In this document: piece by piece, positions 45,516-56,071 of the stretch
How the letters are laid out: each line of letters begins with the position of its first letter
Numbering within the stretch: the stretch's first letter is position 1
Origin: Planctomycetota bacterium
Lineage (GTDB): Bacteria; Planctomycetota; B15-G4
Direction: 5' to 3'
Assembly (NCBI GenBank): GCA_029259715.1
Contig: JAJDEP010000017.1
Location: 124,001 to 188,000, forward strand
DNA: 64,000 bases
Notes under the pieces: model-generated
Seen by the model: only the letters and a program-made list of their open reading frames with translations
What the model was told of the DNA's origin: nothing
Databases searched by the model: none
Program-made: the position numbers and the translations under genes

Positions 45516-47711
45516 TCAGGCGCGACGATGGTCCATATCCGAGGGCAGAGCCACCATCGATCTGAGCTCCACGTCCTCGTAGGCCAGGCGATGATCGGCG
45601 CGAACGAAGACCTCCTTGCCCGATTCCCGCTCGAGGTCGGCGATGACCCCGCGCTGGCTGTTGAGCACGGCCTCGGCCACCTCGGGACGCACCGTCACCA
45701 CCAGGATCCGGCCCGGCTTCCAGAGATTGTCGCGGATCTTCCGGACCACGGTGAGGCACGAGGTCTCGTCGGAGGGGATGAATCCGGTGCTCGAGCAGTA
45801 GGGACACTGTTGGTGCACCGAGCGCTTGAGACTGGTCCGCACCCGCTGGCGCGTCAGCTCGATCAGCCCGAAGGGCGACAGCCGGGCGACCTTGATCCGC
45901 GCCCGGTCCTTGCGCAGGGCCTCCTTGAACTGCCGCTCGATGGACTTGCGGTGCTTCTCCAAGCGCATGTCGATGAAGTCGACCACCACCAGGCCGCCGA
46001 GGTCGCGCAAGCGGATCTGCCGGGCGATCTCGTCGGCGGCCTCCGCGTTGACGTTGAAGGCCGTCTCCTCGATGGACTGCCCCGCCTTGCCCTTGTAGCG
46101 ACTCGAGTTGACGTCGATGGCCACCAGGGCCTCGGTCTGCTCCATGATCAGCGTGGCGCCCGACTTGAGCTCGATGCGGCTCTCGAGCAACTGGCCGAGC
46201 TCGTTCTCCAAGCCGTGATGGCTGAAGAGCGGTCGCTCGCCCTCGTAGTCGATGATCTTGTCGACGCACGACGGCATGATCTCGCCCATGAACTCACGCG
46301 CCTTGCTGGCCGTCAGCGGGTCGTCGATGACGACTTCGCCCTGACCGTCGTAGAGGTCGCGCAGGGTGCGGATGACCAGATCGTTCTCCTGGTAGAGCAG
46401 GACCGGCGCCTCGTGCTCGTGCACGCGAACCTTCATCTGGTCCCACAGCCGCAGCAGGTAATCGAGATCGCGCTGCAGGTCTTCCTTGGAGCAGCCCAGG
46501 CCGGCGGTCCGCACGATGAACCCCAACTCCTCGGGGCACTCGAGCTCGGAGACGACGGTCTTGAGGCGGTCGCGATCGCCCGGGTCGTCGACCTTGCGCG
46601 AGACGCCGCGCTTGTGGATGCCGGGCATCAGCACCACGAAGCGCCCGGGGATCGAGAGGTAGGTCGTAAGGGTCGGGCCCTTGTTGCCGATGCCGTCCTT
46701 GATGACCTGGACCACGATCTCCTGGCCCTTCTGCAGGATCTCCTGGATGGGCGGGAGTTCGCGCTGGTCGCGGTTGCGCGGCTTGCCGCTGCTCTTGCCG
46801 CCACCGCGGCGTGAGCGCCGACGGCCCCGCTGACGCGCCGGGCGAGCCGGCGTCGCCGTCGCGGAACCGCCTCCGGCGGCCGCGCCGACGGCCATCGCGG
46901 CTTCGGCGGGCGCCTCCTCGGATTCCTCGTCGGTAGCGTCCTCGTCCTCGTCCTCGTCTTCGTCGTCATCCTCGTCGTCTGCTTCATCGTCGTCGGAAGC
47001 GCCGTCGGCTGCATGCTCGTCGTCGGCGTCATCCTCGGAGTCATCCGCATCGTCGTCGTCTTCGGCGTGGACATCGAGCGGCTCCGATGACTCGGCGTCG
47101 TCGTCCTCGTCGACCTCGATGTCGTCACCGCCGGTCGCGTCGGGGTCCCAGCCGGCTTCGTGATCTTCGTCGTGATCTTCGTCGTCGTCCTCGGCGTGGG
47201 CCTCATCTTCGGCGTCATCGCCATCGACGGGGTCTGCCTCCTCGTCCACCCCGGAATCATCATCCGCGCCGGACTCCGTCTCGGAGACGGCGTCGACAGT
47301 GTCGTCGTCGGCATCGCGTCGGGCATCCTGCAGCGGCTGCAGCAGGGCCCGGGAGTCGGAGGATACGGCGTCCATGCACAGGTCGGAGACGTGCAGGAAG
47401 CCCTGACGCTCATGCCCGAACTCGACGAACGCGGCGCCGATCGACTTCTCGACGTTCGTGATGCGCGCCTTGTAGATGTTCCCCAGGGTGCTGCCCAGGG
47501 ACTCGCGCTCGATGTAGTACTCCTCGAGACTCCCGCCCTCGAGGATCGCGATGCGGCTTTCTTCCGCCTCGCGAGAGTTGATCAGCAGCTTGCGGACGGG
47601 GTTGCTGGTACTGCGGGAGCGTGAACGGCCCCCTCCGGAACGCCCGGTGCTGGAGCGCCCACTTCCGGAGCGCTGGGATCCTGAACGGTTACCTCTGCGG
47701 CGTCGAGCCAT
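45516..47711 (-). CDS. RNase E/G family endoribonuclease with large acidic insert
   Basis: Single-strand RNA endonuclease for rRNA processing and mRNA decay. 731 residues. A basic Arg/Ser/Gly-rich leader (1-38), core start KLLINSREAEESRIAILEGG, S1 domain from about 70 (NIYKARITNVEKSIGAAFVE, then GFLHVSDL). The S1 domain is interrupted at about 111-318 by roughly 200 residues of Asp/Glu-rich sequence ending in a basic RGRRRSRRGGGK patch, then resumes (ILQKGQEIVVQVIKD). Catalytic Asp533 (ALVAIDVNSSRY) and Asp578 (VVVDFIDM) are in place, and Cys636/Cys639 (CPYC) form the zinc-link. No long C-terminal degradosome scaffold. The first 43 codons overlap the 3' end of the DUF2344 gene. Confidence 0.93.
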   Translation of the reverse strand: MARRRRGNRSGSQRSGSGRSSTGRSGGGRSRSRSTSNPVRKLLINSREAEESRIAILEGGSLEEYYIERESLGSTLGNIYKARITNVEKSIGAAFVEFGHERQGFLHVSDLCMDAVSSDSRALLQPLQDARRDADDDTVDAVSETESGADDDSGVDEEADPVDGDDAEDEAHAEDDDEDHDEDHEAGWDPDATGGDDIEVDEDDDAESSEPLDVHAEDDDDADDSEDDADDEHAADGASDDDEADDEDDDEDEDEDEDATDEESEEAPAEAAMAVGAAAGGGSATATPARPARQRGRRRSRRGGGKSSGKPRNRDQRELPPIQEILQKGQEIVVQVIKDGIGNKGPTLTTYLSIPGRFVVLMPGIHKRGVSRKVDDPGDRDRLKTVVSELECPEELGFIVRTAGLGCSKEDLQRDLDYLLRLWDQMKVRVHEHEAPVLLYQENDLVIRTLRDLYDGQGEVVIDDPLTASKAREFMGEIMPSCVDKIIDYEGERPLFSHHGLENELGQLLESRIELKSGATLIMEQTEALVAIDVNSSRYKGKAGQSIEETAFNVNAEAADEIARQIRLRDLGGLVVVDFIDMRLEKHRKSIERQFKEALRKDRARIKVARLSPFGLIELTRQRVRTSLKRSVHQQCPYCSSTGFIPSDETSCLTVVRKIRDNLWKPGRILVVTVRPEVAEAVLNSQRGVIADLERESGKEVFVRADHRLAYEDVELRSMVALPSDMDHRRA

Positions 47712-48376
47712 GGAATGTCTCCAGGACGACGCTCCCAGTCGAGCTGCTTGATCGCCGGCCCGAACTCGGGCGGCGTCAGACCAGCCTCCTCAGCCAGGAC
47801 CTTGAGGGCCTGCTGGAAGGGTGCGGGTCGGGATTGGGCGGACGAGAACCGAACGACCAGGGTCTCCGCCACCGGTTCGCAGGACACGATCATCGATCGC
47901 ACCTCCACGGTTCGGTCGCGACGCGGGTCGGCCACGGTGAATTCGTCTCGCTTGAGCAGTTCTTCGAGAGCGTCGAAAGCGGACCTCGCATGGGCCGTGA
48001 TGGTCAGCCGATAGCTCACCGTCCCGCTGGGGGACGGCATGGAACCCGGCACGACCGCCACGATCCTCACGGATACGGGCAGGGCGGGGGCCAATCGGCG
48101 GACCACCTCGATCGGAGCGAGGTCCTCGGTCAGTTTCAAAGCCACCCATTCACCCTCGGAAGCGAGGCCCACAGGCAACGCATCGATGAATGAGAGGCAC
48201 AAACGGGGATTGAATCCCTGCGTGTACTGCAACGGCAGGCCGCTGCGGCGCAACGAGCGCTCCAGCAACCGCGAGAAGTCGAGGTGCCCCATAAATCGGG
48301 CGTCGCCATCCTTGCTGACGCACACAGCCATCGGATGGCTGGGTGTGGGAGCGACCGTCCCGGGGGCTATCGACAT
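47582..48376 (-). CDS. DUF2344 / radical-SAM-associated protein
   Basis: 264 residues from the ATG at 48376; a TTG at 48445 would add 23 residues. The N-terminal domain matches TIGR03936: MAVCVSKDGDARFMGHLDFS, then RSGLPLQYTQGFNPRLCLSF, followed by LPVGLASEGEWVALKLTE. In many bacteria this domain partners, or is fused to, a radical-SAM protein (TIGR03960) in front of RNase G, rplU and rpmA. Here the rng-rplU-rpmA order is kept but the radical-SAM partner is not adjacent; upstream lies ptsH. The last 43 codons (Pro/Ala-rich tail) overlap the start of RNase E/G by 130 bases in a different frame. Function unknown; a role in RNA modification is a guess from context. Confidence 0.85.
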   Translation of the reverse strand: MSIAPGTVAPTPSHPMAVCVSKDGDARFMGHLDFSRLLERSLRRSGLPLQYTQGFNPRLCLSFIDALPVGLASEGEWVALKLTEDLAPIEVVRRLAPALPVSVRIVAVVPGSMPSPSGTVSYRLTITAHARSAFDALEELLKRDEFTVADPRRDRTVEVRSMIVSCEPVAETLVVRFSSAQSRPAPFQQALKVLAEEAGLTPPEFGPAIKQLDWERRPGDIPWLDAAEVTVQDPSAPEVGAPAPGVPEGAVHAPAVPATPSASC

Positions 48377-48440
48377 GCCGTCTGTCCGGCGGTGACCACC
48401 GTTGGCGGCCTCCCGCGATTGGGCAGGAATTGGGCTCAGA

Positions 48441-48453
48441 TCCAAACTTTGGA
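48441..48453. promoter_or_regulatory. Perfect inverted repeat TCCAAA-C-TTTGGA
   Basis: A 13-base dyad with six-base arms in the 193-base gap between ptsH and the DUF2344 gene, which otherwise holds no gene. It lies about 65 bases upstream of the DUF2344 ATG. Arms are short, so an operator role is only a possibility. Confidence 0.25.
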
Positions 48454-54798: not shown

Positions 54799-54915
54799 GG
54801 TGCCGTTTCCACGAGACGATGAACGCACAACGGAAGCATCGCTTAGGGCTGCTCCCGTCAGGGCCTGACCCGGTTCACGCGTTCCGTTCGCGTCCGGCCC
54901 CGTGGAAACGACACC
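54799..54915 (-). ncRNA. ffs: Signal recognition particle RNA, bacterial small type (4.5S)
   Basis: Read on the minus strand, the core GUGAACCGGGUCAGG-CCC-UGAC-GGG-AGCAGCCC-UAAGC matches the SRP RNA domain IV. The symmetric loop (GUCAGG opposite AGCAGC) and the closing stem are conserved, and the apical tetraloop is UGAC, of the URRC type, where E. coli has GGAA. The ends pair over 15 bases (54915-54901 with 54799-54813, GUGUCGUUUCCACG with CGUGGAAACGGCAC, one G-U pair), giving a hairpin of about 115 bases. Position directly upstream of dnaX and near a tRNA-Ser is the classic ffs context. End points are estimated from the stem. Confidence 0.88.
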
Positions 54916-54932
54916 GGCGCGCCGTCGAGCCC

Positions 54933-54961
54933 ATCATCCTCGCGATGGCGACGAGGGGCAA
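54933..54961 (-). promoter_or_regulatory. Sigma70-like promoter for SRP RNA
   Basis: Minus-strand TTGCCC (54961-54956), 17-base spacer, GATGAT (54938-54933). Predicted start near 54926, about ten bases before the paired 5' end of the RNA. Lies between the tRNA-Ser(CGA) gene and ffs. Confidence 0.4.
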
Positions 54962-54985
54962 CCCGGGAGGTCCCCGAGGGGTCGA

Positions 54986-55073
<88 letters not shown>

Positions 55074-55139
55074 GTTTGCTGATCCTCCGACCGCCGTGCG
55101 GACTCCCGGCCCTGTCCCGACGCCAACGCGTTGCGGACC

Positions 55140-55229
55140 TGGCGGAGAGAGAGGGATTCGAACCCTCGGAACGGTTGCCCGTTCACTTGCTTTCCAAGCA
55201 AGCACAATCGACCACTCTGTCATCTCTCC
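55140..55229 (-). tRNA. tRNA-Ser (anticodon GGA)
   Basis: 90 bases with CCA encoded. Acceptor GGAGAGA/UCUCUCC, discriminator G. Anticodon stem CUUGC/GCAAG with loop UUGGAAA, anticodon GGA (codons UCC/UCU). The long variable arm pairs AACGG with CCGUU. T arm GAGGG-UUCGAAU-CCCUC. A CATAAT hexamer about 30 bases upstream on the minus strand could be a -10 box but has no matching -35. Confidence 0.96.
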
Positions 55230-55325
55230 GCGACCGGTCCGCCGACTCGCGACGAAGGGCTCGGCCAGGAGCGGCGCATTATGCCGACGACGCCAGCCGA
55301 AAGGGAGACGTCTCACCCCGACGCC

Positions 55326-55901
55326 TCAATCCTGCGGCCGGGCTCCCGGCGGGTCGTGGCCCGGGCCGGGGGCCTGACCACCCTCCGTCGGCGGTCGCTC
55401 GGGTGCCGCCACCGCGCGGCGCCGCGCGCGGAAGAATTCGGTCAGCAGCCGGCCGCACTCCGCGGCCCGCCGGGGCGACACCAGCGTCACCCGGTGGTTG
55501 AGGCGAGGGTCGCTCACGATGTCCCTGAGTGATCCGCAGGCGCCGGCCTTGGGGTCGGTGGCCCCGAAGACCAGCCAGGTCGGACGGGCGAGGACGATGG
55601 CACCGGCGCACATGGCGCAGGGTTCGAGGGTCACGGCCAAAAGGCTGCCCTCGGGGAGGCGCGTCCGGCCGACGGCGGCGCACGCTGCCGACAGTGCCAG
55701 CCGCTCGGCGTGAGCCGTCGGGTCGTTGAGCGTCTCGGTCAGGTTGTGTGACTCGCCCAGGACGTCGCCACCGCTCGACAGGACCACGGCCCCCACCGGG
55801 ACCTCATCCTGCTCGATGGCACGCCGAGCGAGTTCGAGCGCCCGCTCCATGGCCTGATCGGCAAGCCCCGCGGGCGGTTGCGGTAAGGAATCGCCGTTCA
55901 T
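55326..55901 (-). CDS. tadA: tRNA-specific adenosine-34 deaminase
   Basis: Converts A34 to inosine in tRNA-Arg(ACG). 191 residues, slightly longer than E. coli TadA (167) because of a Pro/Gly-rich tail. Catalytic motifs: HAE at 64-66 (His64 zinc, Glu66 proton shuttle), PCAMC at 94-98 (Cys95, Cys98 zinc), EVPVGAVV, SHNLTETLNDPTAHAE, and FGATDPKAGACGS. The tRNA-Arg(ACG) gene lies 93 bases upstream on the same strand. The C-terminal tail ends PPGARPQD. Confidence 0.95.
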   Translation of the reverse strand: MNGDSLPQPPAGLADQAMERALELARRAIEQDEVPVGAVVLSSGGDVLGESHNLTETLNDPTAHAERLALSAACAAVGRTRLPEGSLLAVTLEPCAMCAGAIVLARPTWLVFGATDPKAGACGSLRDIVSDPRLNHRVTLVSPRRAAECGRLLTEFFRARRRAVAAPERPPTEGGQAPGPGHDPPGARPQD

Positions 55902-55994
55902 GCCCTGTCCCTGTTGGACCGCCGCTCATGGGTCGCCAAACGGGGCCGGGAGTTATCCACGGGTTCTCCCCGGAGCGGGCTGCTCCCTCGACGC

Positions 55995-56071
<77 letters not shown>

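Follow-up and report, generated by a model that had tools for sequence, protein, structure and literature searches.

A long, acidic and family-conserved insert in the S1 domain of a planctomycetal RNase E/G

We report that the RNase E/G encoded in a 64,000-nucleotide stretch of DNA from a Planctomycetota bacterium (contig JAJDEP010000017.1; the whole stretch is hereafter called the window) has its S1 domain interrupted by a 211-residue insert. This insert is a genuine, family-conserved and independently evolved version, unusually long and acidic, of a feature that is already known. Indeed, alphaproteobacterial and plant RNase E were reported to carry highly diverse, charged and disordered S1 insertions of 50-150 amino acids (Voss et al. 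2014, PMC4245959). What is new is the phylum, the length, the extreme acidity, the repeated independent origin and the presence of a conserved helix and conserved motifs. Below, f1 designates the family of the window protein, in which six genera were compared, the window's own included; other families are numbered likewise.

An RNase E/G with an interrupted S1 domain

A preliminary description of this DNA had read an RNase E/G gene from its open reading frames, and its position, strand and extent proved correct (Table 1). The 731-residue product matches TIGR00757 at 466 bits (cut-off 326) and, in a Pfam search, the RNase_E_G catalytic profile PF10150 at 311 bits over residues 353-624. It is the only PF10150 gene found in the source genome, which is about 92% complete, and among named relatives the closest is a planctomycete MAG, with 74% identity in the catalytic part. 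The features of RNase E/G (Rne/Rng) are all present in the alignment: the catalytic pair D533 and D578 is invariant, and the S1 RNA-contact residues F95, F105 and K344 (K112 in E. coli), the 5′-sensor residues R401/T402 and the Zn-link cysteines C636/C639 are conserved, the roles being those of the corresponding residues in the E. coli enzyme. The hallmark of RNase E proper, a long non-catalytic C-terminal scaffold, is absent; the protein stops at the thioredoxin-like (Thio) domain in all six f1 members, with about 409 residues between the end of the insert and the end of the protein in each. As judged from sequence and model, the protein is a housekeeping enzyme with its S1 barrel, RNA-binding residues and active site intact. 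The neighbouring genes also form a housekeeping set, in the order DUF2344 - RNase E/G - L21 - L27 - Obg.

The 130 bases at the 5′ end of the RNase E/G gene (47582-47711) also belong, in a different frame, to the DUF2344 ORF (47582-48445, minus strand); in RNase E/G they code for the Arg/Ser-rich N-terminal tail. In this tail the M(A/G)RRR start is kept across f1 while the remainder is variable, and residues 1-27 are predicted to be disordered (pLDDT<50). Elsewhere in the window, a minus-strand cluster at 54807-56071 comprises three tRNA genes together with a small SRP RNA.

Table 1. Positions of the RNase E/G gene and its parts in the window
Feature	Residues	Positions	Strand	Basis
RNase E/G (Rne/Rng) gene, 731 aa		45516..47711	-	ORF, profile matches
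N-terminal Arg/Ser/Gly-rich tail	1-38	47598..47711	-	Family alignment, AlphaFold2
S1 region, first half (GFLHVSD at its end)	41-110	47382..47591	-	Pfam, half-domain HMMs, AlphaFold2
S1 insert, 211 residues	111-321	46749..47381	-	Half-domain HMMs
Conserved helix opening the insert (predicted)	118-135	47307..47360	-	Alignment, AlphaFold2
Hypervariable acidic stretch	145-306	46794..47279	-	Pairwise identity, AlphaFold2
WDPD, member of the [FWYL]xPD motif		47139..47150	-	Motif kept in 5/6 f1 members
DVH, member of the [DE][VI]H motif		47067..47075	-	Motif kept in 6/6 f1 members
Basic block RQRGRRRSRRGGGK	293-306	46794..46835	-	Family alignment; RRGG invariant
S1 region, second half (includes K344)	322-350	46662..46748	-	E. 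coli comparison, alignment, AlphaFold2
RNase_E_G catalytic region	353-624	45840..46655	-	Pfam, alignment
Thioredoxin-like (Thio) domain, Zn-link C636/C639	635-717	45561..45809	-	Pfam, alignment

That the S1 domain is split was confirmed in three ways. The Pfam S1 match is partial (residues 77-119, covering only positions 5-45 of the 74 of the profile), the alignment with E. coli RNase E stops at residue 113 and restarts at 311, and HMMs built for each half of the domain place the insert at 111-321, which slightly extends the 111-318 initially proposed. The insert is dominated by Asp and Glu and ends in a basic patch, as had been described: it contains 86 D/E and 16 K/R (net charge -70), with an Arg-rich block at its end. 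The order of acidic then basic residues, with the basic ones near the C-terminal end, is not random (p<=0.0005 when charges are shuffled within the insert). This acidity is not shared by the neighbouring proteins, since the most acidic 100 residues of the insert are 63% D/E and the runner-up among the long ORFs of the window reaches 30%; general acidity of the proteome, as in halophily, was thus rejected for the window. The insert also contains short tandem repeats, and with a GC3 of 0.79 against 0.91 for the remainder of the gene, it is slightly less GC-biased but still coding-like.

Predicted structure and conservation of the insert

Modelling had been suggested in the preliminary description, and we ran AlphaFold2 on a 79-sequence alignment of the window and locus proteins. 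The core is predicted with pLDDT above 90; both S1 halves exceed 90 and are modelled as strands (79-88, 93-97 and 104-107 in the first half), so that the barrel stays intact in the model despite the insert. Residues 118-135 form a predicted helix (pLDDT ~92 over most of its length) that the preliminary description had missed, whereas nearly all of residues 145-306 have pLDDT<50 and are predicted to be disordered. The insert is thus predicted to open with a helix, to continue as disordered acidic sequence and to close with a basic block. In a Foldseek search with the model, structures of E. coli RNase E head the hits, and Caulobacter 4oxp (S1 and 5′ sensor) is matched at a TM of 0.86, normalised to the target.

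The insert is common to the relatives of the window protein. All six f1 genera carry it in frame at the identical point of S1, with lengths of 211-367 amino acids; relatives lacking it and frameshift signatures, which the preliminary description had named as grounds for doubt, were looked for, and the frame was found open in each genus. Net charge ranges from -59 to -83 across the six although the sequence is not kept, and an Arg-rich block is present in 6/6, mostly at the C-terminal end. Mean pairwise identity is 74% in the core, 59% in the first 32 residues of the insert and 31% in its middle, which indicates that part of the insert is under constraint. The family consensus at its start is LCMAAVGDDSRxLLAPLQAARExAxDEDVV, and the helix falls within LCMAAVGDDSRxLLAPLQAARE.

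Two short motifs, [DE][VI]H and [FWYL]xPD, sit in the variable middle. For [DE][VI]H, the product of the per-sequence shuffle chances is 1.6e-9 over the six f1 sequences, and the best shared reduced-alphabet pattern of the f1 inserts was reached at equal strength in 0/400 shuffles. As the motifs were spotted by eye before the test and the six sequences are related, we consider them as candidates and not as proof, and their persistence may partly reflect shared ancestry. Because of the conserved helix predicted for the first ~25 residues and the conserved short motifs, the term flexible acidic loop, which had been applied to the whole insert, is only partly apt.

Distribution of S1 inserts

Among 51 Planctomycetota families surveyed, long inserts (median >=70 aa) were found in seven (f1, f2, f24, f32, f47, f68 and f83), of which three are strongly net acidic; in sampled enzymes outside the insert-bearing groups, the same site holds ~14-61 residues. 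In a tree computed from RNase E/G with the insert removed, f1 forms one clade with f2 as its sister, and no fewer than five changes of state are required within Planctomycetota (f1+f2, f24, f47+f83, f32 and one f68 member). The long inserts of f24, f47+f83, f32 and f68, while located at the same site as that of f1, therefore have separate origins. The alphaproteobacterial inserts are also of separate origin in this tree, where the long-insert clades are separate with short-insert relatives between them, and common descent of the f1 and alphaproteobacterial inserts is unsupported. The order of acidic then basic residues is found again in f2, f32, f68 and several alphaproteobacteria; it is missing from f47, from f83 and from part of the alphaproteobacteria. 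The f1-type helix is not general either: the f47 model has a 4-residue helix followed by ~280 disordered residues, and a stub helix plus disorder is not supported as the general architecture.

The f24 members L140, L169 and L170 combine an S1 insert of 255-297 amino acids with a long C-terminal extension. Their inserts also hold a conserved internal motif of their own, about FL[DE]xLxxxxPGHxxTxSP, which is likely a partner-binding motif of independent origin.

RNA-decay context

Few studies seem to deal with RNA decay in Planctomycetota; our literature searches found no papers on RNase E or RNA decay in this phylum. RNase Y is absent in 6/6 f1 genomes, and searches for RNase J gave no match in f1, f2 or f3. 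Thus, RNase E/G is probably the main decay endonuclease of f1. Within one order, the decay endonucleases are swapped: f1 has RNase E/G alone, f3 has RNase Y alone, and f2 has both enzymes. From the comparison of f1, lacking RNase Y, with f3, lacking RNase E/G, arose the idea that RNase Y loss drives the growth of long inserts, but it does not hold across the 51 families sampled from the phylum (Mann-Whitney test: insert length, p=0.37; net acidity, p=0.53). In each of the six f1 genomes, the PNPase frame (L181 and L184 included) also encodes a second S1 domain. In the source genome, RGG-rich basic tails are found on PNPase (L181, after the second S1) and on one DEAD-box helicase.

Discussion

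The f1 enzyme has the features of the S1-insert type of RNase E, in that the same loop of S1 carries a charged insertion, which is predicted to be mostly disordered and partly helical. The closest parallel is Caulobacter crescentus RNase E (4oxp), in which the insert lies in the same S1 region, is charged, largely disordered and partly helical, and has one helix in the putative RNA site (PMC4245959); in both enzymes the catalytic domain is otherwise conserved. The f1 insert differs by its length (211 residues, 211-367 in the family, against the ~50-150 reported), its far greater acidity, its discrete Arg block, its independent origin in another phylum and the lack of a C-terminal scaffold. Arabidopsis chloroplast RNase E, as described in PMC4245959, likewise carries a charged, predicted-disordered insertion inside S1, but it is the only one of these enzymes for which the effect of a deletion on function has been reported: without its insert, its activity is lower (PMC4245959). 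A third parallel is the disordered region (IDR) of alphaproteobacterial RNase E, whose alternating charge patches drive BR-body condensation (PMC12691583). This region, like the f1 insert, is disordered with patches of opposite charge; however, it is C-terminal while the f1 insert is inside S1, and f1 inserts consist mainly of one long acidic block with a basic end, clear alternation being seen only in some members (e.g. L038).

As to function, the reading that we favour, and to which we give about an even chance, is that the insert, next to the RNA entry site, scaffolds a degradosome or a condensate and replaces the absent C-terminal scaffold. By sequence and model, a long lineage-specific insertion occupies one surface loop of the S1 β-barrel, and the Arg-rich end of its ~160 disordered, mostly acidic residues abuts the second S1 half. 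The helix and short motifs might bind partner proteins (a DEAD-box helicase, PNPase or another decay factor), and the blocks of opposite charge might gather RNA-decay proteins with basic tails, together with RNA, around the tetramer. Such an insert would act as a scaffold at the RNA entry site of a protein that has no C-terminal one.

In favour of such a scaffold, we count the intact S1, 5′-sensor and active-site residues, the 4oxp match, the conserved predicted helix, the persistent [DE][VI]H motif, the probable role of RNase E/G as main endonuclease and the RGG-rich tails of PNPase and of one helicase. Basic RGG tails are, however, common among RNA-binding proteins, and with six f1 sequences the persistence of the motif is perhaps in part a matter of ancestry. 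The precedents also count in its favour: the RhlB helicase binds a Caulobacter RNase E fragment (PMC4245959), the plant deletion lowers activity (PMC4245959) and charge patches act in BR-bodies (PMC12691583). Against it, RhlB binding was mapped to fragment 1-274, which comprises the 5′ sensor as well as S1 with its insert, and not to the insert alone (PMC4245959), and across the phylum the length of the insert does not follow the absence of RNase Y. The preliminary description had suggested, as one option, a partner-binding region in place of the missing C-terminal scaffold. This fits f1, but it is no general rule since f24 combines a long insert with a long C-terminal extension; overall, that interpretation is partly supported. 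A more specific proposal, which we find hard to favour, is that the degradosome-organising region moved from the C-terminus into S1, where the helix, motifs and charge blocks would recruit a helicase or PNPase and drive condensation at the RNA entry groove, in cells without RNase Y or detected RNase J.

The main rival to the scaffold is autoinhibitory RNA mimicry, a tentative reading that we hold to be rather unlikely. Here the acidic stretch, the helix or both would fill the RNA groove of S1 and the 5′ sensor and be displaced by substrate or partner, thus gating cleavage. It is the RNA-contacting barrel that the insert interrupts, strong negative charge persists over the six genera where sequence does not, and the Caulobacter helix lies in the putative RNA site, with its Asp/Glu side chains proposed as RNA mimics (PMC4245959); both this idea and that of partner binding, the two raised in the preliminary description, are already in print for relatives (PMC4245959). 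However, deleting the plant insert lowers activity and does not raise it (PMC4245959), and filling the groove needs far less than 211-367 residues.

We consider it less probable again that the insert serves local RNA handling and has no protein partners, the Arg-rich block by S1 being, with the basic N-terminal tail, an RNA-binding arm that the acidic stretch tunes or shields. The presence of the Arg-rich block in every f1 member and the recurrence of the acidic-then-basic order in f2, f32, f68 and several alphaproteobacteria are consistent with this, but it leaves the conserved helix and both motifs unexplained.

Near-neutral expansion, in which a tolerated surface loop was grown by slippage at GAC/GAG codons and solubilised by its charge, a short anchoring helix being almost its only functional part, seems improbable to us. 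The short tandem repeats, the hypervariable length and sequence and the repeated gain of long inserts at a permissive site would all suit it; yet charge, acidic-then-basic order, helix and motifs persist across the f1 genera, and only 7/51 sampled families have inserts of 70 residues or more. Finally, a sequencing, assembly or frameshift artefact is refuted for practical purposes, as all six independent f1 genera have in-frame inserts of differing length (211-367 aa) at the same point and both S1 halves are modelled with high confidence.

Returning to the scaffold reading, S1-loop inserts arose repeatedly, in alphaproteobacteria, at least five times in Planctomycetota and, as reported, in plants, and this loop thus looks like a hotspot for regulatory or scaffold additions to a central RNA-decay enzyme. 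With neither RNase Y, detected RNase J nor a C-terminal scaffold, f1 would offer a clean system to ask whether scaffold work can be done inside S1.

Two further observations came from the sampled genomes. In f59 (G082, G100, G116, G162, G176 and others), most members show a pair of lower-scoring PF10150 matches in each genome, as might be seen with a split RNase E/G or one with a large internal insertion. The record L049 (JAHREI010000002.1), titled Bacillus subtilis, encodes an alphaproteobacterial-type RNase E with a length near that of the Pseudochrobactrum ones and is probably mislabelled or contaminated.
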